A stretch of DNA of 64,000 nt from contig NZ_JACAOY010000008.1 of NCBI RefSeq assembly GCF_013385985.1, positions 77,025-141,024 on the forward strand. The letters run 5' to 3'. The first letter of the stretch is position 1, and every line of letters starts with the position of its first letter. The notes beneath the pieces were generated by a model. That model was not told where the DNA came from and did not search any database. It worked only from the letters and a program-made list of their open reading frames with translations. This stretch comes from Pseudomonas sp. B6002 (GTDB lineage: Bacteria; Pseudomonadota; Gammaproteobacteria; Pseudomonadales; Pseudomonadaceae). Both the position numbers and the translations under genes were made by a program. Below, piece after piece: positions 974 through 15,003 of the stretch.

Positions 974-1615
974 ATGACCGAGCGCCTGTTTTTTACCCAC
1001 GACCACCTGACCGCCGAACTGGAGGTGCTAAGTTGCGCGCCCCATGAGGATCAGTTTGCGGTCACCCTGCAGTCGACGATCTTTCACCCCCAGGGTGGCG
1101 GGCAACCGTTCGACACCGGCTGGCTCGGCGACAGCCAGGTGCTGCGCGTCACTCAGGAAGCCGATCGCGTGGTGCATTACGTGGATCAACCTGTACAGCC
1201 CGGCCCGATCACGGCGCGGGTCGATGCACAACGTCGCGCCCTGCACACGCGCCTGCATTCAGCCGGGCATTTGATTGGCAATGCCGGTGAACGCCTGGGC
1301 TGGATGCCGATCAAGGCGCACCACTGGCCTGGCGAAGGCAAGATCACCTTCATCCGTGGGGAGGCGGCACAGGCCATGGACGCCGAGGCCCTTCAGCGCC
1401 AGGTGGATCAATGGATCGCCGCGGATTACCCACGCCACATGGCCCTGGAAGACGGCACCCGCGAAGTCGGTTTCGGCGAATTGCCCGCCTATGCCTGTGG
1501 CGGCACCCATGTGCAGGCGCTGAGCGAACTGGGCCAAGTGACCATCCTGGCCCTGTCCGAGAAAAAGGGCGCGCTGTCGGTGCGTTACAGCATCAACGAC
1601 AACACTGCCGTTTGA
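974..1615 (+). CDS. Alanyl-tRNA editing protein (AlaX-like)
   Basis: Free-standing relative of the AlaRS editing domain, which hydrolyses mischarged Ser- or Gly-tRNA(Ala) in the cytoplasm. The 213-residue protein has the Zn-binding signature of the tRNA_SAD domain: H95-x3-H99 (HSAGH) and C175 with H179 in CGGTH. An N-terminal beta-barrel segment carries the PQGGGQP motif (about 39-45) shared with AlaRS. It has no catalytic or anticodon domain, so it is an editing factor rather than a synthetase. The Shine-Dalgarno sequence is weak. It is divergent from the LysR gene and may be controlled by it. Confidence 0.9.
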   Translation: MTERLFFTHDHLTAELEVLSCAPHEDQFAVTLQSTIFHPQGGGQPFDTGWLGDSQVLRVTQEADRVVHYVDQPVQPGPITARVDAQRRALHTRLHSAGHLIGNAGERLGWMPIKAHHWPGEGKITFIRGEAAQAMDAEALQRQVDQWIAADYPRHMALEDGTREVGFGELPAYACGGTHVQALSELGQVTILALSEKKGALSVRYSINDNTAV

Positions 1616-1628
1616 TCGCCCCAATCCT

Positions 1629-1845
1629 GTAGGAGCCGGCTTGCCGGCGATGGCGGCCTTGAATCCTGCGTTGGACTCACGGGCCTCATCGCCGGCAAGC
1701 CGGCTCCTACAGGGCGATGGTGGCCTTGAATCCTGCGTTGGACTCTCGGGCCTCATCGCCGGCAAGCCGGCTCCTACAGGGCGATGGTGGCCTTGAATCC
1801 AGTGGTGGTCTCAGGGCCTCATCGCCGGCGAGCCGGCTCCTACAG
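1629..1845. repeat. REP array, four palindromic units in 66-67 bp tandem
   Basis: One forward unit (GTAGGAGCCGGCTTGCC, 1629-1651) is followed by three inverted copies ending at 1712, 1779 and 1845. The copies are separated by near-identical spacers containing GGTGGCCTTGAATCC. The unit period is 67 then 66 bp. This is the typical P. fluorescens REP family. The last copy runs into the 3' end of the phosphatase gene. It fills the gap between two convergent genes and may act as a transcription or mRNA-decay boundary. Confidence 0.92.
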
Positions 1846-3414
1846 TATCGTGGCGCCGGGGCGGCCGGGTTCGACCACGAAGGATTGGAGGGTGGAGAGC
1901 GTGGCCAAGGGATCGCGCGGGTCGCTGATCGCGCGCAGGTGGGTGAGCATGCACTGTTCCTGCAACTCCACCGAGACATACCCCCGCTGGCGACTGTCGA
2001 AAAACTTCACATGGGGGTTGAGCGGCAGAATGGCTTTGTACGGCTCATAGGGCGGGCCGTCGGAGGTCACCGATGAACCGACGAACTCGGTAGCCACCAC
2101 CGGCGAGTCCAAATCATTGGCGTCTGCGTGCAGGTCCGTGACCCAGAACGAATGAATATCGCCGCCCCAGAACACCGGATTCTTCAGGTCGTGCCGCTGG
2201 ATGGAGGCCAGCATTCGCTCACGATTGGCCATGTAGCCGTCCCACCCGTCCGTCCAGCGCCCCGGCTTGTGGTTGGTCAGGTCGCGCTGGGTCAACGGTG
2301 CAACGAGCAGGTCCTGTGCGATCACGTTCCACTGCGCAGGGGACTCGGCAAAACCTCGGTCCAGCCAAGCCTCCTGCTCCCAGCCGAGCATCGTGCGGCG
2401 AGGGTCGCGCAGGTCGGTGCAGCTGTTGTCGGCGATGTGCCCCTGGTGGCTGCCATTGGCCAAAATGCACGGTTGTTCGGAGCGGTACTGGCGACCATCC
2501 AACACGTGGAATCGCGCCAATCGGCCGTAGTCCAGGCGTCGGTAAATACGCATATCCGGGCCCTTCGGCAGGCTGCTGGCGCGCAGTGGCATATGTTCGT
2601 AGAAGGCCTGGTAGGCGGCGGCCCGCTGCTTGAGGAATTGCGCCACCGGAGTCTTCGGGTCCTGGGACCAGCGGTTGGCGTAGTCGTTCTGTACTTCGTG
2701 ATCGTCCCACGTCGCCACACTCGGCGCAGCGGCGTGCAGGGCCTGCAGGTCCGGATCGGTTTTGTACAGGGCATAGCGGTTGCGATAGTCACTCAGGCTC
2801 ACCGCATTGCCGCTGCCATGGGCGCGGAAAACTTTGCCCGAGTCGGCGGCATAGGAGCTGTCGTAGATATAGTCACCGAGGAAAAACACCAAGTCCGGCT
2901 GCTCGGCAGCCAGGTGACGGTAGGCACTGAAGTAACCGCGTTCCCAGTGCGAGCACGACACAAACCCTAACCGCGCCGACACCATCGCCTGCATAGGCGG
3001 CGTAGTACACGCACGGCCTACCGGGCTCTGCGCGCCCAGGCCTTCGAATTGGTACCAGTACGGCCTCCCCGCCTCCAGCCCCGCCACTTCCACATGCACC
3101 GAATGGGCAAAGCGTTCCGTCGCCGTGGCTTCGCCCTGCTTCACAATGCGCGTCATGGCCGCATCGCTGGCCACTCGCCAACGCACCGGCACCGGGCGGC
3201 GCAACCCGCCTCGCCCATCATCGGCATTGAACAACGGTGCCAGGCGCGTCCAGATCACGAAGCCATCAGGCAGTGGATCGCCGGAAGCCACGCCCAGGGT
3301 GAACGGATAGTCGACCCCGGCACTGCGTGCAAACGGGCTAAGGATCGAAAAAGCCGAGGCAACCGCCAGCCCCGTGAGAATCCGCCGACGGCCATGGTCC
3401 ACCTCGCCGTTCAT
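1840..3414 (-). CDS. phoD: PhoD-type alkaline phosphatase/phosphodiesterase, Tat-exported
   Basis: Secreted calcium/iron-type phosphatase of the PhoD family that releases phosphate from phosphate mono- and diesters outside the cytoplasm. The 524-residue protein starts with a twin-arginine signal (RRRILTG, residues 9-15, then a hydrophobic stretch). It carries the metal-site motifs LGDYIYD (about 179-185), TWDDHEVQNDY and WGGDIHSFW near the C-terminus. Its start overlaps the preceding GNAT gene by four bases (ATGA), so the two are probably co-transcribed. The TAG stop lies inside the terminal REP palindrome. It is divergent from the TonB/receptor/PLD cluster. No convincing Pho box was found by eye. 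Confidence 0.92.
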   Translation of the reverse strand: MNGEVDHGRRRILTGLAVASAFSILSPFARSAGVDYPFTLGVASGDPLPDGFVIWTRLAPLFNADDGRGGLRRPVPVRWRVASDAAMTRIVKQGEATATERFAHSVHVEVAGLEAGRPYWYQFEGLGAQSPVGRACTTPPMQAMVSARLGFVSCSHWERGYFSAYRHLAAEQPDLVFFLGDYIYDSSYAADSGKVFRAHGSGNAVSLSDYRNRYALYKTDPDLQALHAAAPSVATWDDHEVQNDYANRWSQDPKTPVAQFLKQRAAAYQAFYEHMPLRASSLPKGPDMRIYRRLDYGRLARFHVLDGRQYRSEQPCILANGSHQGHIADNSCTDLRDPRRTMLGWEQEAWLDRGFAESPAQWNVIAQDLLVAPLTQRDLTNHKPGRWTDGWDGYMANRERMLASIQRHDLKNPVFWGGDIHSFWVTDLHADANDLDSPVVATEFVGSSVTSDGPPYEPYKAILPLNPHVKFFDSRQRGYVSVELQEQCMLTHLRAISDPRDPLATLSTLQSFVVEPGRPGATIL

Positions 3415-3965
3415 GTGCGGGCCTCCCAGTCCTCACGCAACGCGGCGAAACCGAGCAAGTCTTCATACACGCCGTTCTTGAGAAACGCCCCGCGCATGCA
3501 GCCCTCATAGCGCAGGCCGATTTTTTCCATCACCCGTGCCGATTCCTTGTTGCGACCAAAGCACTGGCTGCCCACCCGATGCAGCCCGAGCTGCGTGAAC
3601 CCGTAACCGGTGACCGCACTCGCCGCTTCAGCGGCATAGCCCCGGTTTCGACAGCTCGCCGCGACCCAACCCCCAAGGTGGCCATAGTGATGCCGCGCAT
3701 TCAGACGCAAGCTGACGATGCCGATCAATTCGCCACTTTCCCGCAGGTGCATGCCGAGGCTGAGCAGGTCGCCTGCACGAAATTTATCGTCCATCGCACC
3801 AATAAACTCCTGCGCCGTTTCCAGCGTGTAGGGCGACGGAATGTTCGCCGTGTTGTCGGCGATTTTCGGCCCGTTGGCGAGGGTGGAAAGGGTCTCGGCC
3901 TGGGTCATTTCCAGCGCCCGCAATAGTAGTCGCGGTGTCGCCAAATGAGGCAGTGCGGTCGGCAT
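3411..3965 (-). CDS. GNAT-family N-acetyltransferase (RimJ/RimL-like)
   Basis: A 184-residue acetyltransferase that transfers acetyl from acetyl-CoA to an unidentified amine. The order is typical of the RimJ/RimL branch: TPRLLLRAL at the N-terminus, GxIGxxSL-type strand (GELIGIVSLRL) in the middle, then NRGYAAEAA as the acetyl-CoA loop and NKESARVMEKIGLRYEG near the C-terminus. I take the ATG at 3965; the TTG at 3995 would add an unusual N-terminus. The stop overlaps phoD's start, suggesting a two-gene operon. A role in phosphate metabolism is not implied by the fold. Confidence 0.85.
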   Translation of the reverse strand: MPTALPHLATPRLLLRALEMTQAETLSTLANGPKIADNTANIPSPYTLETAQEFIGAMDDKFRAGDLLSLGMHLRESGELIGIVSLRLNARHHYGHLGGWVAASCRNRGYAAEAASAVTGYGFTQLGLHRVGSQCFGRNKESARVMEKIGLRYEGCMRGAFLKNGVYEDLLGFAALREDWEART

Positions 3966-4155
3966 ACAGGGGGGCTCTCGAGATAAATTCTTCAAGAATG
4001 TAGCCCCTGTGTGTCAATTGCATTACGTCATAAAACTGCAAGGTAAATTGCCTGTAAGACGCGTCCTAGAGCCCTCAAAACGTCAATTAAAGTTAACCAA
4101 TCGGTCATTTTTGGTTGTTAGCGTGTCGCCCCTAATTCAACGACGGGGTAGCGGA

Positions 4156-4563
4156 ATGAGAACCTGGGATGAACCCAAGAAGCGCAAGGCACACATCGAA
4201 TTGATCCCGATGATCGACGTGATGATGTTCCTCCTGGTGTTTTTCGTACTCGTGAGCTTGAACGTGATTCCGGCCCTCGGCATGAAGACGCAACTGCCCA
4301 GCGCGAGCAGTTCGCAGCAGCTCAAACCACAGAACAAATTCATCCTGACGTTGGGCCTGGAAGGCCAACTGCAACTCGACGGCAAGGACCTCACAGTCGA
4401 TGCCCTGGTACCGGCGTTGAAGGCCGCCGAGAAGCCCGATACCAAGTCGACGATCATCGTCAATAGTGACAAGGGCGTGGAAGTGTCGCGCCTGGTGGAA
4501 GTGATGGACACCCTGCGCCTGGGTGGCTTCACCTCCGTGTCCATTGCCACGCGTAAGTCCTGA
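4156..4563 (+). CDS. exbD: ExbD/TolR-family energy-transduction protein
   Basis: Inner-membrane proton-channel partner that couples the proton motive force to TonB. The 135-residue protein has a short cytoplasmic N-terminus, one membrane helix with the essential Asp in IPMIDVMMFLLVFFV (D21), and a periplasmic C-terminal domain. The ATG at 4156 gives the standard ExbD start; an upstream in-frame start would add about 49 unrelated residues. It is the first gene of exbD-tonB-receptor-exbB, with tonB two bases downstream. The order is unusual: exbB normally precedes exbD, but here it comes last. Confidence 0.88.
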   Translation: MRTWDEPKKRKAHIELIPMIDVMMFLLVFFVLVSLNVIPALGMKTQLPSASSSQQLKPQNKFILTLGLEGQLQLDGKDLTVDALVPALKAAEKPDTKSTIIVNSDKGVEVSRLVEVMDTLRLGGFTSVSIATRKS

Positions 4564-4565
4564 TC

Positions 4566-5294
4566 ATGTACGTCCTGTTTCGTGCGCGTCAGCTGCTGGG
4601 CAGTGTCCCGGCCCTGATCGCCCTGGTGCTGATTGCACTGGGTATCCAGTCCCAGACCTTGAAGGTCGAACCCAAGTACGACGAGTCGGCGGTCGAGCTG
4701 GCGTTGGTCGAGCCCGAGCCGGAAGTGATCCCGGAACCGGTGGTGGAACAAGAGCCGCCCCCGCCAGTGATCGAGGACGAAGAGGCCGAGCCGGCCCCGC
4801 CGCCACCACCGCCCAAGCCGCAGCCAAAACCCAAGCCTGAGCCCAAGCCAAAACCTGTGCCCAAGCCCGTGGTCGCCAAGCCAACCCCAACACCGACGCC
4901 GCCTCCAGTGGCCGCCAAACCGGCCCCCGCCGCCGTGGCCCAGGCCGCGCCGACACCCGCACCGCCGGCGCCGCCGAAGGTCGACGGCCAGGCGCTGGAA
5001 GGCGGTTACCTCAAGGGGCTGCGCAACGAGTTAGACACCTACAAGCAGTACCCCACCGGCCGCCAGGCCTCCCTCGAACGCCCCAGCGGCGAAGTGGTGA
5101 TCTGGCTGCTGGTGGACCGCCAGGGTCGCGTTCTGGACTCCGGCTTGCAAACCCAGGCCTCGAGCATGTTGCTCAACCGGGCCGCCACCAACAGCTTGCG
5201 TCGTATCAAGCAAGTCAAGCCGTTCCCCGAGCAAGCCTTCGGGGGGCGCAATGAGCAGCGCTTCACCGCCACCTTCAACTACAGCGTGCAATAA
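4566..5294 (+). CDS. tonB: TonB-family energy transducer
   Basis: Periplasm-spanning protein that transmits energy to an outer-membrane receptor. The 242-residue protein has an N-terminal membrane anchor (about 10-30). A long Pro/Glu then Pro/Lys-rich spacer follows (about 45-140), with acidic EPEPEV and EPPPPVIEDEE runs and basic PKPKP repeats. The TonB C-terminal domain (about 150-242) contains a YP box-like LDTYKQYPTG and PFPEQAF. It lies between exbD and the receptor gene, so it is probably dedicated to that receptor. It is not the main chromosomal TonB, which normally sits elsewhere. Confidence 0.88.
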   Translation: MYVLFRARQLLGSVPALIALVLIALGIQSQTLKVEPKYDESAVELALVEPEPEVIPEPVVEQEPPPPVIEDEEAEPAPPPPPPKPQPKPKPEPKPKPVPKPVVAKPTPTPTPPPVAAKPAPAAVAQAAPTPAPPAPPKVDGQALEGGYLKGLRNELDTYKQYPTGRQASLERPSGEVVIWLLVDRQGRVLDSGLQTQASSMLLNRAATNSLRRIKQVKPFPEQAFGGRNEQRFTATFNYSVQ

Positions 5295-5318
5295 GCACCC
5301 GACACCAGGACGACAGTG

Positions 5319-7598
5319 ATGAGGTTCACACGGATTCATCTGGCACTCGTTGCCGCAAGCATGGGCCATGGAATGGTCATGGCCGACACCAGCGACAGCG
5401 ACGTCGGGACTATTGGGGTTCAGGGCAAGGCCACGGCAGGTGGCGGCTACATGGTGCAGGAAGAAAGCATCAAGGGCCGCTCCACCGTGACCAAGGAAGC
5501 GCTGGATAAGCAGACCGCCACCGGTAACGCGATCGACAAGCTCAAGTACACCCCGGGCCTGAACATCTCCAGCGAAGACAACACCGGCCTGTCGGGCTTC
5601 CGCTTCACCATGCGCGGGCTCAACTCCGACCAGGTGGGGATGTCGGTGGACGGCATGCCGATCAACGACTCCGGCAACTACGCGCTGTACTCCAACCTGC
5701 TGGGCGACCCGGAAAACATCGAGCAGATCTTCGTCACCCAAGGCTCGGCAGAAGCTGACGGCCCGCACATCGGCTCCAGCGGCGGCAACATCGGCATCGT
5801 GACCATTCGCCCGACCAAGGAAACCGGCGCGTTCGTCAAACAGGTCATGGGCAGCAACGCCACCCGCAAGACCTTCGCCCGCCTCAACAGCGGCGAGATC
5901 AACGGCCTGAGCAACTGGCTGTCGGTGTCTCATACAGAAGGTGACATGTGGCGCGGCTCGGGCGCCGTGCGGGCGGACAAGGTGGAGTGGAACAGCTTCT
6001 TCGACGCCGGCAACGGCAACACCGCCAACCTGATCCTCAAGTACCACGAGCAGGACAACAACAGCTACAGCCAGCTCACCAAGGGCCAGTTCCAGCAGAA
6101 CGGCCGCAAGTACGATCCGTACCCTGCCACGCCGACCGTGGGCAGCAACGGCAAGGTCAACAGCTACTACGCCCTGGCGCAGAACCCGTTCCAGACCTTC
6201 ACGGGGGTGCTCAATACCCAATTCAAACTGGCTGACAACCTGGCGTTGTCGGTGATCCCATATTACTACTGGGGCAACGGCAGCGGCGTGGGCTCGAACA
6301 GCTACGCGCTGAACCGCGGCTCCAACGCGGGCGGCGTGTTCGACTTGAGCAACCTGCCGACCGCGGCGCAGTACAACGCCGACGGTTCCTCAACCACCGG
6401 CGTGTACTACCGCCCTTCCCGCACCCAGACCTGGCGCCCGGGCATCACCACCAAGCTGAACTGGGACCTGGAAGAACACAGCCTGCAATTCGGCTACTGG
6501 TATGAGCGTGCGCGCCAAAGCCAGACCCAACCGTTCATTGCCCTCAAGAGCAACGGCAAGCCAACCGACACCTGGCCAGACGGCAACGCCGTGGTCGATG
6601 CCAACGGCAACACCGTGCAGGGTCGCGACCGCTTCACCGTCACCCCGGCGCAAAAAGTCTGGGCCCAGGACACCTGGTACATCAACCCGGACTGGACCCT
6701 GGTGGCGGGCCTCGCCTACATGAACGTCGAGCGTGACGGCACCAACCACGGCAGCCTCACCGAGCAGGCCGAGAAGCGTAACCAGACCTACAACAAGCTG
6801 CTGCCCAACGTCGGCCTCAAGTACCAGCTGGATGAGCGTGACCAGTTGTTCTACAGCCTGTCGCGCAACATGCGTATCCCGCAGAACTACGTGCTGTACG
6901 ACAAAGGTGCCGGCTCCATCGACGCCAAGCCGGAAACCAGCTGGAACCACGAGCTGGGCTGGCGCTACACCGATGAAGACATGACCGTGGCCGCGACCTT
7001 GTTCTACATGCAGTTCAAGGATCGCCAGGTGTCGTCCAAAGACATCAACGGCGACTTCGCCGACATCAACGCCGGCTCGGTCAACAACAGCGGCCTGGAG
7101 CTGGAATGGAGCGGCCTGCTGCCCAACCACTTCAACTACTACACCTCCTACACCTACACCAAGGCCGAGCAACAAGATGACCTGACCGTCTACAACGCCG
7201 GCAAGGCCATCCTTTTGCCCACCAGCGGCAAGCAGTTCGCCAACGTGCCGAAAAACATGCTGGCCGCCAACATCGGCTACGACGACGGGCGCTTCTACGG
7301 CACCTTCGGCGGCAAGTACACCAGCAAGCTCTACGGCGACCTGACCAACGACGAGGCGATCTCCGGGCGCACCGTTTTCAACGCCGGCGCCGGTATCTAC
7401 CTGCCGGTGGACAAGAAGGTGGTCAAGGACGCGACCCTGCGCCTGAACGTCGACAACCTGTTCGACAAGAAGTACCTGGACGGCGTGTACACCACCAAGA
7501 CCAACTCGGCCACCTACGGCGGTTTCCGCGACGGCGACCCGGCGTACATCGTGGGCCTGGAACGCACCGTGACGGTTTCCCTGGAAGCCAATTTCTAA
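5319..7598 (+). CDS. TonB-dependent outer-membrane receptor
   Basis: A gated 22-strand barrel for uptake of an unknown ligand. The 759-residue protein has a signal peptide ending near MVMA, a plug domain (about 50-170; DKLKYTPGLNISS, RGLNSDQVGMSVDGMPIND, GSSGGNIGIVTIRP) and a barrel ending in a terminal Phe (SLEANF). The ATG at 5319 has AGGA eight bases upstream; the GTG at 5316 is too close. It is flanked by its own tonB/exbD and exbB genes, which points to an energised uptake system. There is no sigma/anti-sigma pair and no evident Fur box, so a siderophore ligand is not specifically supported. Confidence 0.93.
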   Translation: MRFTRIHLALVAASMGHGMVMADTSDSDVGTIGVQGKATAGGGYMVQEESIKGRSTVTKEALDKQTATGNAIDKLKYTPGLNISSEDNTGLSGFRFTMRGLNSDQVGMSVDGMPINDSGNYALYSNLLGDPENIEQIFVTQGSAEADGPHIGSSGGNIGIVTIRPTKETGAFVKQVMGSNATRKTFARLNSGEINGLSNWLSVSHTEGDMWRGSGAVRADKVEWNSFFDAGNGNTANLILKYHEQDNNSYSQLTKGQFQQNGRKYDPYPATPTVGSNGKVNSYYALAQNPFQTFTGVLNTQFKLADNLALSVIPYYYWGNGSGVGSNSYALNRGSNAGGVFDLSNLPTAAQYNADGSSTTGVYYRPSRTQTWRPGITTKLNWDLEEHSLQFGYWYERARQSQTQPFIALKSNGKPTDTWPDGNAVVDANGNTVQGRDRFTVTPAQKVWAQDTWYINPDWTLVAGLAYMNVERDGTNHGSLTEQAEKRNQTYNKLLPNVGLKYQLDERDQLFYSLSRNMRIPQNYVLYDKGAGSIDAKPETSWNHELGWRYTDEDMTVAATLFYMQFKDRQVSSKDINGDFADINAGSVNNSGLELEWSGLLPNHFNYYTSYTYTKAEQQDDLTVYNAGKAILLPTSGKQFANVPKNMLAANIGYDDGRFYGTFGGKYTSKLYGDLTNDEAISGRTVFNAGAGIYLPVDKKVVKDATLRLNVDNLFDKKYLDGVYTTKTNSATYGGFRDGDPAYIVGLERTVTVSLEANF

Positions 7599-7615
7599 CT
7601 GCGAGGTAAGTGAAC

Positions 7616-8263
7616 ATGGACATGAATGTGCTCCACGACATCACGTTTTATGTGATGTATGCCGCGATGGCCATCGCGATCTTTATCACCATCGAGCGCG
7701 GGATCTTCTTCGCCTATGTGCGCCGCCAGGCACGCGCCTTGACCGAGGTGCTGGGCGCCAACGTGCACAGCGAACGCGACTTGCCGGAAAGCCTCACCCG
7801 TCGCGACAGCCTGCCGTTGACCATGGTGCTCCCGGTGCTGGCGCAAAAAGCCACCCACGGCTCGCGCAAAGACCTGGATGACGTGATCGAAACCCAGTAC
7901 CTGACCACCCGCGCGCCGCTGGCCCGCAGCCTGTGGATCATCGAGACCATCACCACCGCCGCCCCGCTGCTGGGCTTGCTGGGGACCATCCTGGGCATCA
8001 TCGACACCTTCAAGGCACTGGCCAGTGCCGGCGTGTCCGACCCGGGCCAGATCTCCGGTGGTATCGGTACGGCCTTGTTCGCCACCGGCCTGGGGATCGC
8101 CATCGCGCTGTTCTGCGTGGTGTTCCACAACTTCTTCCAGGACAGCCTGGAGCGCATCAACGACCAGCTGAAAATCCTGCTGATCCGCGCAGCCACCGGC
8201 GCCCGTGTGCAGGGTGAAGTCCCGCACCTGGTACCGACCCCGCTGCACAGCCGCACCGCGTAA
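7616..8263 (+). CDS. exbB: MotA/TolQ/ExbB proton-channel family protein
   Basis: Pentameric inner-membrane channel subunit that works with ExbD. The 215-residue protein has a first membrane helix at about 8-28. A cytoplasmic stretch follows, then two helices around TAAPLLGLLGTILGIIDTFKAL and GIGTALFATGLGIAIALFCVVF, the conserved ExbB/TolQ pore. The ATG at 7616 has GAGG at 7603-7606; the GTG at 7610 is only three bases from it. It follows the receptor gene by 17 bases and completes the exbD-tonB-receptor-exbB set. A strong terminator-like hairpin follows at 8271. Confidence 0.9.
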   Translation: MDMNVLHDITFYVMYAAMAIAIFITIERGIFFAYVRRQARALTEVLGANVHSERDLPESLTRRDSLPLTMVLPVLAQKATHGSRKDLDDVIETQYLTTRAPLARSLWIIETITTAAPLLGLLGTILGIIDTFKALASAGVSDPGQISGGIGTALFATGLGIAIALFCVVFHNFFQDSLERINDQLKILLIRAATGARVQGEVPHLVPTPLHSRTA

Positions 8264-8270
8264 TGATTCG

Positions 8271-8300
8271 GGCGGGCGCGCAATGCGCCCGCCATTTTTT
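8271..8300 (+). terminator. Rho-independent terminator-like hairpin after exbB
   Basis: GGCGGGCGC and GCGCCCGCC form a nine-base stem around GCAAT, followed directly by A and six T. It sits between exbB and the PLD-family gene on the same strand, so it should end or attenuate the TonB operon before that gene. Confidence 0.8.
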
Positions 8301-8314
8301 ACGAAGAGATCCCT

Positions 8315-9532
8315 ATGCCCATTCCCTTGAAATTGCGTATCGCAGGCCTTGCCGGTTTGCTCCTCAGTCCGCTTGCCCAGGCGGACTTTTCAATTGCGGG
8401 TTTTGAACTGGTGCACACCGTGCCCGTGGACACCGCGCTGGGTACCGCTGATTTACGTCAACCGGGACCGGTGTGGATCGAGCTGTTCGACGGCGCAAAA
8501 ACCTCCATCGACATTGGCCAGTTCTACGCGGCCGATCACTCGGGTTCGGTGATGGACAAGGTGATCGAACACCTGGAAGCCGCAGGCAAACGCGGTGTGA
8601 AGATTCGCTTTTTGCTGGAAGAAAAAGGCATCAAGCTGTCGGAAGCCTCCACCCTGGAACGCTTGCGCGCGATCCCCAACCTGACCTTTCGCGTACTGCC
8701 TTATGGGCAACTGAGCGGCGGCATCATCCACGCCAAGTACATGGTGGTGGATGGCAAGCAGGCGTTTATCGGCAGCCAGAATTTCGACTGGCGCTCACTG
8801 GAACACATCCACGAAACCGGCCTGCGCATCAGCGACGTCAGCGTGGTCGGCCAGGTACAGGCGATCTTCAATCAGGACTGGAACGCCCAGGCTGCCCTGA
8901 CAGAGCACAAGCCCGTGCCACTGCCAGCGAAAGGCGCAGAACCAGCACGCACCGGCAACTACCTGGTCGCCAGCCCGCAACGCTACAACCCTCCGGGAGT
9001 GGGTGACTCACAGCTGGAACTGCCACGCTTGCTGGGCGAGGCGAAAAAAGAGGTGCGCGTGCAATTGCTCGACTATGCACCGCTATCCTACGGACCCGAC
9101 CGGACACGTCCCTACTACGCGGTGATCGATAATGCCGTGCGTGCAGCGGCGGCGCGGGGGGTGTCGATCAAGCTGATGGTGTCCAACTGGAACACCGACA
9201 AGCTGGAACTGCCCTACCTCAAAAGCCTGGCCGTGCTGCCCAACGTGCAGGTCAAAATCGTCACCTTGCCCGAAGCCAAGCAAGGCTTTATTCCGTATGC
9301 ACGGGTGATCCACAGCAAGACGATGGAGATCGACGGGCAAGTGGCGTGGGTGGGTACCAGCAACTGGTTGGGCGGATATCTGGATAATTCACGCAACCTC
9401 GAAGTGGTGATGCGTAGCGAGGCGATGGCCAAGCGTATCGGCGAATTGCATGAGCAATTGTGGGATGGGCCCTACGCCAGCGCCTTGAACCTGACCGAAG
9501 ACTACCCCGAGCCCCACCCCGGCCAGCCTTGA
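8315..9532 (+). CDS. Secreted phospholipase D-family protein, two HKD motifs
   Basis: Predicted periplasmic phosphodiesterase/transphosphatidylase or nuclease. A signal peptide (cleavage near AQA, residue 23) is followed by two complete HxKx4D catalytic motifs: H139/K141/D146, with FIGSQNFDWRSL after it, and H333/K335/D340, with WVGTSNWLGGY after it. Two motifs in one 405-residue chain make a full active site. The GSxNxDWRSL and GTSNW patterns resemble the PLD3/PLD4-type branch, which includes 5'-exonucleases, more than the large bacterial phospholipases; this is from memory of the family. It lies 51 bases after exbB beyond a terminator-like hairpin. Confidence 0.88.
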   Translation: MPIPLKLRIAGLAGLLLSPLAQADFSIAGFELVHTVPVDTALGTADLRQPGPVWIELFDGAKTSIDIGQFYAADHSGSVMDKVIEHLEAAGKRGVKIRFLLEEKGIKLSEASTLERLRAIPNLTFRVLPYGQLSGGIIHAKYMVVDGKQAFIGSQNFDWRSLEHIHETGLRISDVSVVGQVQAIFNQDWNAQAALTEHKPVPLPAKGAEPARTGNYLVASPQRYNPPGVGDSQLELPRLLGEAKKEVRVQLLDYAPLSYGPDRTRPYYAVIDNAVRAAAARGVSIKLMVSNWNTDKLELPYLKSLAVLPNVQVKIVTLPEAKQGFIPYARVIHSKTMEIDGQVAWVGTSNWLGGYLDNSRNLEVVMRSEAMAKRIGELHEQLWDGPYASALNLTEDYPEPHPGQP

Positions 9533-9547
9533 CCCAGCCCTCCCCCT

Positions 9548-9647
9548 GTAGGAGCTGGCTTGCCAGCGAAAATAGCCCAGGCACCACAATTAGCCAGGCA
9601 GTGCGCATCATCGTTAAAGGCCATCGCCGGTAAGCCGGCTCCTACAG
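9548..9647. repeat. REP pair (inverted)
   Basis: A forward GTAGGAGCTGGCTTGCC unit and an inverted copy ending in CCGGCTCCTACAG are separated by about 55 bases. They lie between the PLD-family gene and the M20 peptidase gene. Confidence 0.9.
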
Positions 9648-9701
9648 GTCCGTGGGCAGGCGCTCGCTCGTGGAAAAAAGAGGTGGTAGTGTGTGGAAAT
9701 G

Positions 9702-9723
9702 TTTCTGACAGATTGATCAGAAA
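9702..9723. promoter_or_regulatory. Inverted repeat upstream of the M20 peptidase
   Basis: TTTCTGA, eight bases, TCAGAAA, located about 40 bases before the start codon and flanked by further A/T-rich partial symmetry (GAAAT on the left, TTTC on the right). It could be an operator; no regulator lies beside it. Confidence 0.3.
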
Positions 9724-9760
9724 TTTCCCACTCACTACCTGCAAAGGAATGCATCTCTCC

Positions 9761-11500
9761 ATGCACTTTCCACTCAAGAAACTGGTGGCGGCTACCCTGC
9801 TCGCGGCCAGCCTGTCGACCCTGTCCAACGCGGCCTTTGCCAACATTACCCCAGAGCAAAGCGCGCAGATTCTGCAGCAGTTCAACGAAACATCGGTCAG
9901 CGATTTCCGTGGTTTCCTCGGCGCCCTGGCCAAGGGCGACTTGGGAAAAACCAGCGACGTGGGCCCGGCAATCAATGGGTTCCTTGGCAACCAGACGCTG
10001 AACACCGACCAGCAGAACGAAATCAACCGCCTGCTGGGCATCTACACGCGGGTGAAGTACGGCAAGGCCGCCACCGAAACCCTGCGCGAGCTGGTGGAAA
10101 TCCCGACGTTCAACATTGAAGGCGTGCCGCAGTACAAAAACCCGGAATTCCTCAAGATCGCCGCCAAGATCCAGGAACTGGCAAAGGCCTTCAACCTGAA
10201 CTTCCGCAACATCGACAACCGCGTGTATGAAATTTCCCTGGAAGGCAGCGGCGATGAAGTGGTGGGCATCCACGCCCACGCCGACGTGGTACCGGTGACG
10301 CCGGAAAACTGGGTGCTCAAAGACGGCACCAAGCTCGACCCGTTCAAGGTCACGCTGATCGGCGACCGCATGTATGGCCGTGGCACCGAGGATGACAAGA
10401 ACGGCATCGTGGTGGCGATGTACGCCATGAAGGTGATCAAGGAAGAAAAGCTGCCGCTGGCGCGCACGTTCAAACTGCTGGTGGACACCACCGAAGAAAC
10501 CAACGGCGACGCGATCCCCTACTACTTCGAACACAACCCGACGCCGCAGTACAACCTGGCGCTGGACGGCGGCTACCCGGTGGTCATCGCCGAAAAAGGC
10601 TACGGCACGGTCATGGCCACCTTCCCGGTGCGCAAAGGAGAAGGCAAAGGCGCAGAAATCATTTCGATGACCGGCGGCATGGCCACCAACCAGATTCCCT
10701 CGGCGTCGGTGGCGACCCTGCTCAGCGACAAGCCGGCCGAGTTGGCTGCCAGCCTGCAAAAAGCCGGCACCGAGTATGCCAAGCGCAATGGCGCTAACTT
10801 CCAGGTCGACGCCAAAGTGGTCGGCAAAGAGGTCAAGCTGACAGTCACGGGTGTCTCGGCGCACTCCTCGGAACCGGAAGCCGGTATCAACCCCGTCGCC
10901 CGGATGCTGGGCCTGATCCACAGCCTCGAGGGCAAGGTGGCGCTCAAGCACAACCACATCACCGATGCGGCGCGCTATGCCGCCGACAACTGGGGCCTGG
11001 ACTACCTGGGTAATAAACTGGGGGTGGGTTTCTCCGATGCCTTCATGGGGCCGCTGACCACTTCGCTGACGTTTGTCGGCCAGGATGACAAAGCCTTCAA
11101 GTTGGCGGTCAACCTGCGTGTGCCTAAAGGCAAATCGCCGGAAAAACTCAAGGCCGAGATTGCCGACAAACTCAGTGCCTGGGACAAGAAAACAAAGGTG
11201 GCAGTGGGCTTCACTTACTCCGTTGCCGAACCGATGTACCGCAACCCGGAAGGCGAGTGGGTGAAGGCTTTGCTGGCAGTGGCCAGCGAGAACCTGGGCA
11301 TGAAGCACGAGTTTGGCACCTCGGCCGGCGCGACCTCCGTGCATGAGCTGCCCAACGGCGTGCAATTCGGCCTGGCACGGCCGGAAGTAAAGTACACCGG
11401 GCACACCGACAGCGAGTTCAAGACCGTCGACCAGTTCCTGCTGGACCTGCAGATTGTCACCGAGATGATGGGGCGTGTCGGGCAGTTGCCGAAGCTCTGA
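9761..11500 (+). CDS. Secreted M20-family metallopeptidase (dipeptidase-like)
   Basis: Zinc-dependent exopeptidase of the M20 clan, predicted in the periplasm. The signal peptide is MHFPLKK, a hydrophobic core, then cleavage near AFA. Metal and catalytic motifs follow in order: HAHADVVPV, YGRGTEDDKNG, and DTTEETNG with the general-base Glu pair. The dimerisation insert lies in the middle and GHTDSEF near the C-terminus supplies the last metal-side residue. It is 579 residues from the ATG at 9761. The ATG at 9749 touches the AAAGGA ribosome site and so cannot be used efficiently. It stands alone, with REPs before and a terminator after. The natural substrate is unknown. Confidence 0.9.
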   Translation: MHFPLKKLVAATLLAASLSTLSNAAFANITPEQSAQILQQFNETSVSDFRGFLGALAKGDLGKTSDVGPAINGFLGNQTLNTDQQNEINRLLGIYTRVKYGKAATETLRELVEIPTFNIEGVPQYKNPEFLKIAAKIQELAKAFNLNFRNIDNRVYEISLEGSGDEVVGIHAHADVVPVTPENWVLKDGTKLDPFKVTLIGDRMYGRGTEDDKNGIVVAMYAMKVIKEEKLPLARTFKLLVDTTEETNGDAIPYYFEHNPTPQYNLALDGGYPVVIAEKGYGTVMATFPVRKGEGKGAEIISMTGGMATNQIPSASVATLLSDKPAELAASLQKAGTEYAKRNGANFQVDAKVVGKEVKLTVTGVSAHSSEPEAGINPVARMLGLIHSLEGKVALKHNHITDAARYAADNWGLDYLGNKLGVGFSDAFMGPLTTSLTFVGQDDKAFKLAVNLRVPKGKSPEKLKAEIADKLSAWDKKTKVAVGFTYSVAEPMYRNPEGEWVKALLAVASENLGMKHEFGTSAGATSVHELPNGVQFGLARPEVKYTGHTDSEFKTVDQFLLDLQIVTEMMGRVGQLPKL

Positions 11501-11513
11501 TTACGCGATGAAA

Positions 11514-11546
11514 ACAAAAAGCCCGCCATGATGGCGGGCTTTTTGT
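11514..11546. terminator. Bidirectional terminator
   Basis: AGCCCGCCAT and ATGGCGGGCT form a stem flanked by A-run and T-run, between the M20 gene and the convergent small gene, so it can serve both strands. Confidence 0.9.
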
Positions 11547-11554
11547 TGGAAGGA

Positions 11555-11800
11555 TCAGTTCGGTGCAAGACCGCCCCGCTCCACCAGCGCCAGCTCGGGG
11601 AACTCGAACAACAAGGCCTTGTTGCCCCTGCCAATATGCTCCATCACCGCCAGCGTGATGTACTCGCGCACCATCCCGGTTGAGACGAAATACATGGCCC
11701 AGGCCTGCTCAGGTGTGCAGTGGCCAATCTGTTCTTCTATTTCCTTGTACGCTTTGTAGTCGTCCGGCTCCAAGCCGCGTGGGCAATCGCCTCGGCGCAT
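11555..11800 (-). CDS. Small conserved-looking protein of unknown function (81 aa)
   Basis: I do not recognise this family. The 81-residue acidic protein begins MRRGDCPRGLEPDDYKAYKE and contains a predicted helix-rich middle (EEIEEQIGHC-like and MVREYITLAVMEHIGRG). It has no signal peptide or membrane segment. The ATG at 11800 is preceded by a strong GGGAGGGAAG ribosome site, which supports it being translated. It lies 53 bases downstream of the polyamine-type binding protein gene on the same strand and is probably in its operon. The bidirectional terminator follows. Confidence 0.65.
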   Translation of the reverse strand: MRRGDCPRGLEPDDYKAYKEIEEQIGHCTPEQAWAMYFVSTGMVREYITLAVMEHIGRGNKALLFEFPELALVERGGLAPN

Positions 11801-11853
11801 GATTCTTCCCTCCCTGGAATGTCTTGAAGCCGGCACAGCATGTGAAACGCAGA

Positions 11854-12957
11854 TCAGGTGCCGCTTTTTACCTTGGTCCAGACACGGGTGCGGATGCGTT
11901 CCAACTTCAAGGGTAAAGGCTCCAATGGAACGAGCTCGGCGATGGTCGTTTTGTCTGGGTAGATCCACGGGTTGTCACGCAGCTTCTGCTCGACGAACTC
12001 GGTGGCGTCCTTGTTGGCGTTGGGGTACAGCGTGTGGTTCGAGCTCTTGGCAATTACCTGCGGCTCAAGCATGTAGTTGATGAAAGCCATGCCTTGCTTG
12101 GCGTGCGGGGCATCCTTGAGCAGTACGAAGTTCTCCGACCAGACCAGCGCGCCCTCGTGAGGCAGGCTGTAGGCAATGGTGCGGCCGGTGTTGTTCTTCT
12201 CGTTGAGGGCTTGCGCCGCCAGTGCACTGTTGGCCCAGCCGACGACGGCGCAAATGTTGCCGTCCGCCAGGTCGGCATCGATTCGCGATGAGTCGAAGTA
12301 GACGATGTAAGGGCGGATTTTCAGCAGCAGCGCCTGGGCCTTTTGGTAGTCCTCGGGGTTCTGGCTATTGCTGGGTAACCCCAAGTAATGCAGGGCGATC
12401 GAAATGATCTCGCTCGGCGAGTCGAGCATGGCCACGCCACACGACTTGAGCTTGCTGATGTTTTCTTCCTTGAAAATCAAGTCCCAGCTGTTCACCGGCG
12501 CGTTTTCGCCCAGCGCAGCCTTGACCTTGTCGACGTCATAACCGATGCCGGTGGTGCCCCACAGGTACGGCACGGCGTAAAGGTTGCCAGGGTCGTTGGC
12601 CTCGAGCAGCTTGAGCATGTCGGGGTCGATGTGGGAGTAATTGCTCAGCTGCTTGCGGTCCAGCGGCTGGAGGACGCCGGCCTTGATCAGGCCTGGCAAG
12701 GTGTTGGAGGTGGCGACGACGACGTCATACCCGGTGCGCCCGGCCATGACTTTGCTTTGCATGATCTCGGCACTGTCGAACGGGTCCATGTGCAGCCGCG
12801 AACCGGTCTTCTGCTCGAACTGCTTTGGGGTTTCCGGAGCGAGCAGGCCGAACCAGTTGTACAGGTACACACCAGGCGCTGCTGCCTGTGTCGCTGTACT
12901 GGTGCCAACAGCAAGGAGCGAGGCCAAAAAAATGGCTCGCAAATGTGATTTACTCAT
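11854..12957 (-). CDS. Polyamine ABC transporter periplasmic binding protein (PotF/SpuD-like)
   Basis: Periplasmic solute-binding protein of the spermidine/putrescine class. The 367-residue protein has a signal peptide (cleavage near TQA) and then the family start VYLYNWFGLLAPETPKQFEQKTG. The hinge and ligand regions GYDVVVATSNTLPGLIKAG and YLWGTTGIGYDVDKV follow, with the C-lobe CAVVGWANSALAAQ. I chose the ATG at 12957; the longer reading adds a non-signal extension. No permease or ATPase gene is adjacent, so it may serve a transporter encoded elsewhere or act in sensing. The LuxR-type regulator is divergent. Confidence 0.88.
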   Translation of the reverse strand: MSKSHLRAIFLASLLAVGTSTATQAAAPGVYLYNWFGLLAPETPKQFEQKTGSRLHMDPFDSAEIMQSKVMAGRTGYDVVVATSNTLPGLIKAGVLQPLDRKQLSNYSHIDPDMLKLLEANDPGNLYAVPYLWGTTGIGYDVDKVKAALGENAPVNSWDLIFKEENISKLKSCGVAMLDSPSEIISIALHYLGLPSNSQNPEDYQKAQALLLKIRPYIVYFDSSRIDADLADGNICAVVGWANSALAAQALNEKNNTGRTIAYSLPHEGALVWSENFVLLKDAPHAKQGMAFINYMLEPQVIAKSSNHTLYPNANKDATEFVEQKLRDNPWIYPDKTTIAELVPLEPLPLKLERIRTRVWTKVKSGT

Positions 12958-13037
12958 ATGACTATCCTTGTCAAAACGGTAGGCCCTCATGGCCTTCATT
13001 CGCTCGCTGGTGAATATACCGGGCATCGTTGAATAGT

Positions 13038-13057
13038 AAATACCTACAAATACTTAC
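13038..13057. promoter_or_regulatory. Tandem decamer between binding-protein gene and LuxR gene
   Basis: AAATACCTAC is followed without gap by AAATACTTAC (nine of ten bases identical), about 80 bases from each divergent start. It has the form of a direct-repeat regulator site; which protein binds is unknown. Confidence 0.4.
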
Positions 13058-13095
13058 CTTTGACCTGAAAATCCCTAACCCTAAAGGGGTAGAAA

Positions 13096-13887
13096 ATGTC
13101 GCTCGACCTTCATAACCTGGCCTGGCATCGATCAGCGGGGAAGCTGATCATGCAGTTGAATCGCCCAGCCTTCTGGAGCTCGCTGATTCGTGTACTGAAT
13201 GAATATGTGCAGATCGACAACTGGGTGGTCGTGGTGTTCAGCGACCAGCAAGTGCAAGTCATCTGCCTGCCGGAAGTGGTGGATTCCGAAGAAATCGACG
13301 CCTTTATTCATCGCTATATAAAAGGGCTGTACCTGCTGGACCCGTTTTATATCGCCAACCGGGAAAACCCGCAGACCGGCTTTTTTCACCTGCTGGACAT
13401 CGCGCCGGAACACTTCCTGACCACCGAGTACTACCACCAGTATTTCGCGCAATACATCACTGTCGATGAAGCGCAGTACAACGTGCAGCTCGACGCCGAC
13501 CGGACGCTGTGCATTTCGCTGGGCAGCAACGTGCGCTTCACTCAGGAACAGATCACGATCCTGGACATCATCAAGCCGTGGGTCACGGCCTTGATGCATC
13601 AGCGCATGAGCTTTGAAAGCGAAGTGGAAAAAAATCTCAGCGAACCACCGGCGTGGTCGGAAACGATTGTGCAGTTGGGCACGCAGGTCACCGCCCGCGA
13701 GAAGGATGTGCTCAAGTTGCTGTTGAGTGGTTTCTCCAACAAAGAGATTGCTGGCAAGTTGTCGCTGTCGGCGGAAACCATCAAGGTTCATCGGCGCAAT
13801 ATCTACAACAAGCTGAACATCAAGTCGCAGTCCGAGTTGTTTGCCCGATTCTTCATGCCCAAGCAGGAAACCCATGTATTGAATTGA
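13096..13887 (+). CDS. LuxR-type (FixJ/NarL fold) transcriptional regulator
   Basis: A 263-residue regulator with a C-terminal LuxR helix-turn-helix (about 200-255): TAREKDVLKLLLSGFSNKEI, then SLSAETIKVHRRNIYNKL. The N-terminal 190 residues are not a receiver domain (no phospho-Asp motif) and lack the acyl-homoserine-lactone signature as far as I can see, so the signal is unknown. It is divergent from the polyamine-type binding protein gene, with a tandem decamer in between, which suggests control of that gene. A hairpin and then a bidirectional terminator follow. Confidence 0.88.
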   Translation: MSLDLHNLAWHRSAGKLIMQLNRPAFWSSLIRVLNEYVQIDNWVVVVFSDQQVQVICLPEVVDSEEIDAFIHRYIKGLYLLDPFYIANRENPQTGFFHLLDIAPEHFLTTEYYHQYFAQYITVDEAQYNVQLDADRTLCISLGSNVRFTQEQITILDIIKPWVTALMHQRMSFESEVEKNLSEPPAWSETIVQLGTQVTAREKDVLKLLLSGFSNKEIAGKLSLSAETIKVHRRNIYNKLNIKSQSELFARFFMPKQETHVLN

Positions 13888-13889
13888 GT

Positions 13890-13910
13890 TCGGCGGCCCA
13901 GGGCCGCCGA
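13890..13910 (+). other. GC-rich hairpin after the LuxR-type gene
   Basis: TCGGCGGCCC and GGGCCGCCGA pair around one base. There is no T-run after it, so on its own it is not a standard terminator. Confidence 0.5.
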
Positions 13911-13930
13911 AACAATAAAACGCGCGCAAA

Positions 13931-13964
13931 CAAAAACGCCGATCATCACTGATCGGCGTTTTTG
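13931..13964. terminator. Bidirectional terminator between LuxR gene and tRNA cluster
   Basis: CAAAAACGCCGATCA and TGATCGGCGTTTTTG are perfect 15-base arms around TCAC. It can end the LuxR transcript on one strand and the tRNA transcript on the other. Confidence 0.92.
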
Positions 13965-13971
13965 TTGAATA

Positions 13972-14047
<76 letters not shown>

Positions 14048-14050
14048 AAA

Positions 14051-14126
14051 TGGCGTCCCCTAGGGGACTCGAACCCCTGTTACCGCCGTGAAAGGGCGGT
14101 GTCCTAGGCCACTAGACGAAGGGGAC
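14051..14126 (-). tRNA. tRNA-Glu(TTC), copy 3 in transcript order
   Basis: 76 bases with encoded CCA. Acceptor GTCCCCT pairs with AGGGGAC; the anticodon TTC lies in CCCTTTCACGG. Three bases separate it from the following tRNA-Gly. Confidence 0.97.
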
Positions 14127-14229
14127 ACGCTACTGAAACACAGGGTGTGTGTTCCAGTGCCCAGAGATTAAACCCGAAGGTTATGCCCTGGTTTCACTCA
14201 GTGCCGCCCGAAGGCCACACTGCTTAAAT

Positions 14230-14305
<76 letters not shown>

Positions 14306-14309
14306 AAAA

Positions 14310-14385
14310 TGGCGTCCCCTAGGGGACTCGAACCCCTGTTACCGCCGTGAAAGGGCGGTGTCCTAGGCCACTAGACGAAGGGGAC
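14310..14385 (-). tRNA. tRNA-Glu(TTC), copy 2
   Basis: Identical to the copy at 14051; separated by four bases from the following tRNA-Gly. Confidence 0.97.
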
Positions 14386-14489
14386 ACACAACTGAAACAC
14401 ATGGTGTGTATTTCAGTGTCCAGAGATTAAACCCGAAGGTTACGCCCTGGTTTCACTCAGTGCCACCCGAGGGCAACACTGCTTAAATT

Positions 14490-14565
<76 letters not shown>

Positions 14566-14569
14566 ATAT

Positions 14570-14645
14570 TGGCGTCCCCTAGGGGACTCGAACCCCTGTT
14601 ACCGCCGTGAAAGGGCGGTGTCCTAGGCCACTAGACGAAGGGGAC
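14570..14645 (-). tRNA. tRNA-Glu(TTC), copy 1
   Basis: Promoter-proximal tRNA of the six-gene array; identical to the other tRNA-Glu copies. Confidence 0.97.
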
Positions 14646-14707
14646 ACACGTACAACTTCACTGCTTAACCGCGTTTCGCTGTGTGCTTTCCGCGTTAAGT
14701 GGCGCGC

Positions 14708-14736
14708 ATTCTATGGATGGATTGAAAGGTCGTCAA
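14708..14736 (-). promoter_or_regulatory. Sigma-70 promoter of the tRNA array
   Basis: On the minus strand, TTGACG (14736-14731), 17 bases, TAGAAT (14713-14708), followed by a GC-rich GCGCGCC discriminator. That discriminator is typical of stable-RNA promoters under stringent control. It lies about 60 bases upstream of the first tRNA-Glu. Confidence 0.8.
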
Positions 14737-15003
14737 CCCCCAAGGATAAATTTATTAAAATCAATGACTTCGCCCCGCTTTCCGGGCCTTTGCGCACATT
14801 CTGCCCGTCCAGGCTTTGACGCCTATATTCTGGCGCCCGACAAGACGCTATAGTCCACCCCAGCAAATGATGGCAATGTGCATCTATGCAGGGAACGCTT
14901 ACCTATATAGAAGAAACTACCTGGGCAACTGGTCGATCAGTCCTATCCGCCAGATGGCTCAGTCACTACACTCCACTGCAAACCCTATTAAGAGGTCACA
15001 CCG
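14737..15003. other. Intergenic region between tRNA promoter and the 256-residue gene
   Basis: A divergent upstream region. Apart from the tRNA promoter at its left edge and the GAGG ribosome site at 14992, I see no gene or repeat. It presumably carries the promoter of the rightward gene, which I could not place securely. Confidence 0.4.

Follow-up and report, generated by a model that had tools for sequence, protein, structure and literature searches.

Organization of the Gene Cluster

The window analyzed here is a stretch of 64,000 nucleotides from Pseudomonas sp. B6002 (genome size 6.68 Mb), in which five co-directional genes in the order exbD-tonB-receptor-exbB-PLD fill positions 4156-9532 with gaps of 2, 24, 17 and 51 bases. 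They encode a TonB-dependent receptor, its own ExbB-ExbD-TonB motor and an enzyme of the phospholipase D (PLD) superfamily, and we consider it fairly probable that the cluster serves phosphate scavenging through TonB-driven uptake of nucleotides or oligonucleotides, which would then be cleaved in the periplasm. The five tightly packed genes had already been recognized in the initial annotation, with which the open reading frames (ORFs), families and gaps agree; overlooked were a divergent GNAT-PhoD gene pair (1840-3965), a conserved block upstream of exbD and a hairpin (8271-8293). Protein families were scanned for the eight proteins encoded in 1840-11500, and the assignments relevant here are as follows.

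1840-3414, minus strand: phoD, PhoD-type alkaline phosphatase/phosphodiesterase with a twin-arginine signal recognized by eye (PF09423, 8.9e-111; PF16655, 6.6e-30)
3411-3965, minus strand: GNAT acetyltransferase gene (PF13302, 1.3e-23; reading frame checked)
4156-4563, plus strand: exbD (PF02472, 5.4e-32, over cut-off)
4566-5294, plus strand: tonB, proline-rich, with a short C-terminal TonB match (PF03544, 6e-5; TIGR01352, 4.7e-5)
5319-7598, plus strand: TonB-dependent receptor (Plug domain PF07715, 5.5e-15; barrel PF00593, 2.2e-42; both over cut-off)
7616-8263, plus strand: exbB (PF01618, 2e-26, over cut-off)
8315-9532, plus strand: PLD-superfamily enzyme with a signal peptide recognized by eye and two HKD motifs (PF13091, 2.5e-36)

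The ExbB and ExbD of the window score under the cut-offs of the finer NCBIfam exbB/exbD/tolQ/tolR models, and tonB lies slightly under its curated cut-offs (PF03544, 23.9 vs. 24.6 bits; TIGR01352, 23.6 vs. 27.1 bits), its place, length and proline-rich linker being in keeping with TonB. For the receptor an alternative GTG start is possible at 5316. PhoD reaches 491 bits with the NCBIfam PhoD model and is thus under its cut-off of 1000. The GNAT gene, which precedes phoD and overlaps it by 4 bases, is probably incidental to the system, and an intergenic region of 190 bases separates this pair from exbD. As the initial annotation had stated, sigma and anti-sigma genes are not found among the eight scanned proteins.

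Conservation and Gene Order

When named genomes were scanned with the PLD, 53 loci were obtained, 46 from Pseudomonas and seven from Duganella/Massilia. Leaving out three Pseudomonas loci cut by contig ends (L007, L010, and L012), 43 uncut loci remain, and these have the same gene order and orientation, with PhoD, exbD, tonB, exbB and PLD present in all 43, the receptor in 42 and the GNAT gene in 41. Receptor and PLD are both kept in 42/43 loci, the opposite of the loss of linkage that the initial annotation had named as the outcome speaking against its proposal. The exception is P. spelaei (L039), where the receptor gene is gone from an otherwise intact cluster and a remnant between tonB and exbB (9185-9290) resembles the receptor's last codons. 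Of 150 evenly sampled genomes of the genus, 21 contain the receptor (at least 79% identity); the PLD is present in 22, namely in these 21 and in G044, and eight more genomes hold only a receptor relative of at most 60% identity and no PLD match. Conserved in this way across the genus (21-22 of 150 genomes), the five genes are not a chance assembly. The receptor orthologue of one genome (L070, G119) carries one internal stop codon.

In a phylum-wide sample of 398 genomes (E up to 1e-50) the PLD occurs in 11 genomes, the receptor in 11 and both in seven, and in six of these seven the two lie close together. Four genomes (G194, G446, G468, and G514) have only a remote receptor (26-31% identity). 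A search of the class with the receptor of locus L146 (E 1e-100) gave the window's own genome as the sole match among 369, so that this receptor family is rare.

The initial annotation had described the gene order as rearranged and unusual, with exbB placed after the receptor. The same exbD-tonB-receptor-exbB order is also present in a second type of Pseudomonas cluster (L086, L087, L088, L090, and L091; L089 is cut before exbD) as well as in L145 (family f20) and L146 (family f29), which belong to two other families of the class; in L144 (f20) tonB was missed by the ORF caller. Since the order recurs across these relatives, it represents an inherited unit, and the notion of a rearrangement has to be given up.

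The PLD-Superfamily Enzyme

Both HKD motifs of the window's PLD are complete (residues 139 and 333), as noted initially, and both were matched in all 13 PLD relatives tested. The nearest solved structure is that of SpPLD from Serratia plymuthica (7e0m, 2e-174 over residues 25-403), and the next nearest chains are PLD4 (1.4e-35), PLD3 (1.5e-31 and weaker) and a poxvirus nicking-joining enzyme (9e-29), followed by the far weaker matches to the poxvirus envelope phospholipase OPG057 (9e-9) and then NucT. The same ranking results for the PLD of L144 (SpPLD match 2e-176). With the NCBIfam models for DrmC, cardiolipin synthase and NucT the window's PLD stays under every cut-off. SpPLD is a close homologue that has been described as a lipid enzyme; its authors report loops resembling those of nucleases and a positive patch that would not suit acyl chains, and close by asking whether it hydrolyses nucleic acid (PMC8004604). 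No measurement of SpPLD activity, on phospholipids or otherwise, was found in the text consulted. In family f20 a PLD gene likewise follows exbD...receptor-exbB, and in L144 of that family a protein with a phytase-like esterase domain (PF13449, 6534-7910) is encoded directly after the PLD.

The window's PLD is probably an exonuclease like PLD3 and PLD4. With these 5'-3' exonucleases (8v05, 8v08, 9vbj and others) it shares two HKD-type motifs, the stretch behind the first of them and a near whole-length alignment with E down to 1e-35; unlike them it is bacterial, has a signal peptide and is encoded in one operon together with the TonB genes.

Genes Accompanying Receptor Relatives

The labels of the relatives' neighboring genes are largely by similarity, and family-scanned genes are named as such below; the neighborhoods of L150, L154, L155, and L156, where the ORF caller (trained on seven genes of the window) called no genes, do not enter the comparison. 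In all six second-type Pseudomonas loci (L086-L091) a 5'-nucleotidase gene, labeled by similarity, directly follows exbB; PF02872 is over cut-off in those of L086 and L089, with the finer NCBIfam models under cut-off. In L091 it is followed by genes for a cytidine deaminase (cdd), a NupC homologue, deoxyribose-phosphate aldolase (deoC), thymidine phosphorylase (deoA) and phosphopentomutase (deoB), over cut-off. Genes of similar sizes occupy the matching places in L089 and L090, NupC being over cut-off in L089, which also holds a gene of the purine nucleoside phosphorylase family, and L088 has a xanthine permease gene nearby and an AphA acid phosphatase gene upstream. The cluster of L159 comprises PhoD, exbD-tonB-receptor-exbB-PLD with a receptor 79% identical to that of the window, and a 5'-nucleotidase, with no gene labeled as GNAT, and L146 reads exbD-tonB-receptor-exbB-5'-nucleotidase-PLD.

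For the seven Duganella/Massilia loci, labeled by similarity to genes of L048 and L050, the 5'-nucleotidase gene adjoins the PLD in six, and genes of the adenosine deaminase family (6/7), for guanine deaminase (5/7) and for one type of ABC permease (5/7) are found with it; L052 has none of these partners. In L048 a gene for an S1/P1 nuclease (family-scanned in this locus alone) comes after the PLD, and like-sized genes hold this place in L049, L050, L051, L053, and L054. A homologue of the receptor is found in L048 and L049 only. In the Massilia loci L050, L051, L053, and L054 a protein of 1139-1140 residues replaces it before the 5'-nucleotidase and PLD, which in L051 (4706-8128, scanned there) has a barrel and carboxypeptidase-regulatory domains. 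Beside a receptor-less PLD in L151 lies a gene of the HAD acid phosphatase family (PF03767, 8223-8756). No nucleotide genes were seen near the more distant receptor relatives L093-L094 (33-36% identity), which limits any statement on the ligand to the nearer receptor clade, and a comparison of conserved residues and charge among the receptors was uninformative on the ligand.

The linkage of receptor and 5'-nucleotidase was counted by a PF02872 search of 30 genomes, 27 of them Pseudomonas (G044, nine with neither receptor relative nor PLD, and 17 that have a receptor relative) and three from other families; since the six genomes that contain L086-L091 were chosen knowing that the gene is present, the count is not blind. 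The 27 Pseudomonas genomes contain nine PF02872 genes in eight genomes, and seven of the nine are situated inside the receptor cluster (G009, G051, G061, G086, G108, G130, and G134); of the remaining two, one is an additional copy in G134 and one lies in G012. Given that some 20 kb make up 0.3% of such a genome, this clustering is far beyond chance, kinship notwithstanding. In the receptor tree, which comes with long-branch warnings, the receptors from nucleotidase clusters fall on more than one branch.

Promoter Region and Hairpin

Three candidate regulatory elements were located in and around the cluster.

4025-4042, plus strand: Pho-box-like site ACGTCATAAAACTGCAAG, eighth best of 127,966 window positions with the Pseudomonas matrix
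4080-4112, plus strand: three 11-base units ACGTCAATTAA-AGTTAACCAAT-CGGTCATTTTT resembling a PhoB-type tandem array (score 11.1, p = 0.010)
8271-8293, plus strand: terminator-like hairpin in the exbB-PLD gap, with a stem of ten pairs and ATTTTTT behind it

The plain E. coli Pho-box consensus was uninformative (five window sites at three mismatches vs. 7.9 expected, none in the promoter; a softer score gave 42 window sites reaching at least 12/18, of which one lies in the promoter), and we therefore built a Pseudomonas matrix and then an array score of 7-base half-sites every 11 bases. The matrix derives from 17 distinct putative phoB/phoX sites of Pseudomonas, which are the best upstream consensus matches and not proven sites, leaving out the phoX promoter of the window's genome (best 10/18) and the phoX loci L095, L108, L111, and L112. 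Array scores were compared with 500 shuffles for the window and 300 for a set of 18 promoters; the p values are not adjusted for the use of several array lengths, nor are the orthologues independent of one another.

The single site at 4025-4042 is outscored by 16 of the 17 training sites, and only some of the orthologues have their best site there. The array lies within an upstream block (4059-4148) whose conservation is 0.87-0.98 per 10 bases vs. 0.63-0.85 for 4009-4058, based on 50 distinct orthologue rows, with five rows of the second type and three from distant orthologues excluded. Among 17 promoters, three-unit arrays reach p < 0.04 in 11 of 12 of the window's type (chosen from 64), and L039 gives 0.044; the array of L076 is stronger at the window's place and that of L073 is stronger in the same 11-base register slightly upstream. 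Two of the five second-type promoters in this set (L077 and L078) have strong arrays, the other three do not. Five-unit arrays with p of 0.003 or less were found in 7/7 cases comprising L086, L087 and five single receptors (L092 and L163-L166), a three-unit array with p of 0.003 in L159, and a two-unit site with p below 0.004 in the Duganella loci L048 and L049. Arrays are absent in L088, L144, L145 and before the 5'-nucleotidase of L048 and L051, and weak in L090, L091, and L146. The response to low phosphate hinted at in the initial annotation thus gains support from the arrays of the window and of some relatives and none from those relatives that lack them. Transcription of the cluster is probably raised by PhoB. 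Phosphate depletion enriched a PhoD, among other proteins, in exoproteomes of Pseudomonas (PMC5082522), which may not be the product of this phoD, and term counts in the main texts of Pseudomonas Pho-response papers gave no occurrence of the words TonB or Exb. No Fur-like site was found, the best match to the Fur consensus being 10/19 (shuffle mean 10.6, p 0.94), in line with the absence of an evident Fur box noted initially. The conserved promoter core was discarded as a regulon marker (one exact and four three-mismatch matches in the genome vs. six for the reversed control).

Terminator-like sites number 11 in 1500-10000 (8.8 in shuffles), and the hairpin at 8271-8293 has the longest stem among them. 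Across 21 chosen orthologues 97.3% of the hairpin cells are paired, with three pairs altered on both sides, in one sequence each, and several orthologue loci carry other, REP-like palindromes in the exbB-PLD gap. The hairpin is perhaps a partial terminator or a processing or stability element, and it may set the expression of the PLD lower than, or apart from, that of the transporter. REP-like palindromes are also present in the window at 1617-1855 (three tandem units about 67 bases apart, reaching the 3' end of phoD) and at 9545-9648.

A Putative Uptake Route for Nucleic Acid Pieces

The interpretation of the cluster as a phosphate-scavenging system for nucleotides or oligonucleotides builds on its gene content and conservation, on the kinship of the enzyme and on the genomic company of the relatives, from which we infer the ligand and the direction of flow. 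The receptor, energized by its own ExbB-ExbD-TonB motor, would carry nucleotides or short DNA or RNA pieces across the outer membrane. In the periplasm the PLD would trim the imported pieces, probably in the manner of PLD3 and PLD4, and phosphate would be freed by PhoD (in relatives by a 5'-nucleotidase or acid phosphatase), after which the nucleosides would enter by inner-membrane transporters encoded elsewhere. PhoB would raise transcription, with the PLD placed behind the hairpin.

The initial annotation had proposed, from the dedicated energizer and a periplasmic phosphodiesterase, the uptake of a phosphodiester-containing ligand such as phospholipid headgroups or nucleic acid pieces. A phosphodiester ligand is in keeping with our analysis, and between the two examples the nuclease, 5'-nucleotidase, nucleoside transporter and catabolic genes of the relatives, together with the resemblance to PLD3 and PLD4, favor nucleic acid over phospholipid. 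It is unlikely that the ligand is another phosphorylated nucleoside compound (NAD, a nucleotide sugar or cyclic nucleotides) in place of DNA/RNA pieces or plain nucleotides: the 5'-nucleotidases match the models for UshA, NAD nucleotidase and 2',3'-cyclic phosphodiesterase, all below cut-off, but deoC-deoA-deoB in L091 point to deoxynucleosides and the S1/P1 nuclease accompanying the PLD in L048 points to polymers. We regard as improbable the scavenging of phospholipids or glycerophosphodiesters, in which the PLD would free headgroups and the receptor would import a lipid-derived phosphodiester. The name of the superfamily, the deposition of SpPLD as a phospholipase, the weak match to OPG057 and the matches of cardiolipin synthase models would fit such a function, as would a fatty-acid CoA ligase gene preceding the receptor-less PLD in L147, and PhoD enzymes are able to act on diesters. 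However, among the labeled or scanned genes of clusters with receptor and PLD, where many neighbors are unscanned, no lipid, glycerol-phosphate or choline gene was seen, the closest kin after SpPLD are nucleases, and the loops of SpPLD are unlike those of lipid-active PLDs (PMC8004604). We hold it to be just as improbable that the receptor, powered by its dedicated TonB motor, is one for a siderophore or some other metal, the PLD and PhoD being mere neighbors or handling phosphate released elsewhere. A match of 140.9 bits to the siderophore-receptor model TIGR01783 and the ECF/FecR/PepSY genes beside L086 (by look and place also L087 and L092) speak for such a receptor; against it stand the position of that score under the model's cut-off of 223.5, the missing Fur site, the joint retention of receptor and PLD and the nucleotide genes adjoining the relatives.

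Several observations weigh against nucleotide or oligonucleotide uptake by the window's cluster. The ligand is not readable from sequence, the window's genome has no PF02872 5'-nucleotidase (genome search), and neither a deo gene nor one for a nucleoside transporter was seen in the cluster itself. The Pho array of the window is of no more than moderate strength, and some relatives, among them L088 and L051, have none. PLD and receptor also occur apart: G044 has the PLD with neither the receptor nor the other cluster genes within 19 kb, G496 has the two on different contigs, and four of the 11 PLD genomes of the phylum sample (G182, G362, G434, and G445) lack the receptor. The receptor-less PLD of L147 is preceded by the CoA ligase gene and that of L148 stands beside a potassium transporter gene, with no nucleotide gene recognized beside either PLD, most genes of L147-L149 being outside the family scan. 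The f20 loci L144-L145 have neither an adjacent 5'-nucleotidase nor a Pho array, and G374 and G485 hold five PF02872 matches, none of them near the cluster, with one of two in the cluster in G323. A phospholipase, OPG057, is among the weaker matches of the PLD. The Duganella ABC permease scores highest, though under cut-off, with the NCBIfam model of a putative B6 transporter, yet the binding protein of the L050 transporter belongs to the Bmp/PnrA family, so that nucleosides are its likely, not certain, substrate. The single receptors L092 and L163-L166 stand without exb, tonB or 5'-nucleotidase genes beside them; their genomes also hold the main cluster, and each is located behind its five-unit Pho-type array. 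Finally, the cluster of L086, which was scanned, is preceded by genes for an ECF sigma factor, FecR and PepSY and followed by one for an STN receptor, and L087 resembles it in its flanks by look (PepSY was scanned there as well). Such genes are usual near iron systems. The Pho arrays and 5'-nucleotidases of L086 and L087 themselves would argue otherwise for the middle part of these loci.

By description, the system is comparable to PhuR-phytase of Xanthomonas, in which a TonB receptor is likewise joined to a phosphate-freeing enzyme and the ligand differs in being inositol phosphate. The pairing of a PhoD-type phosphatase with a nuclease is known from P. aeruginosa, where the PhoD homologue EddA is encoded in an operon with EddB, a nuclease for extracellular DNA (eDNA), and eDNA can serve as sole source of carbon, nitrogen or phosphorus; these enzymes are exported, and the accessible text mentions neither a TonB receptor nor a motor (PMC4899797). 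In the model for DNA consumption by E. coli, DNA is cut in the periplasm by EndA and nucleosides enter via NupC, but the outer-membrane step is given to porins or HofQ, and the word TonB is absent from the main text (PMC9273947). Searches of an open-licence library brought up no report of a TonB receptor or other powered entry route for nucleic acid. It is conceivable, at somewhat less than even chance, that the cluster represents the first class of TonB-dependent transport for nucleic acid, with oligonucleotides as food, a PLD3/PLD4-type exonuclease as partner, a PhoB-driven phosphate branch and a deo-linked carbon and nitrogen branch. The route by which DNA or nucleotides used as food cross the outer membrane of non-competent bacteria is poorly known, and a powered receptor would, if true, be a new answer. 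It would also suggest a role for SpPLD, whose structure is solved and whose function is open, and would connect the recycling of eDNA phosphorus with a gene cluster amenable to counting in metagenomes.

Additional Features of the Window

Downstream of the cluster lies a gene for an M20 dipeptidase. The product of 974-1615 resembles an alanyl-tRNA editing domain by eye, and a similar protein adjoins phoD in L039. An Rfam scan of 1700-15000 gave nothing except six tRNAs, and a tRNA-Glu(ttc)/tRNA-Gly(gcc) pair is present in three tandem copies at 13972-14645 on the minus strand.

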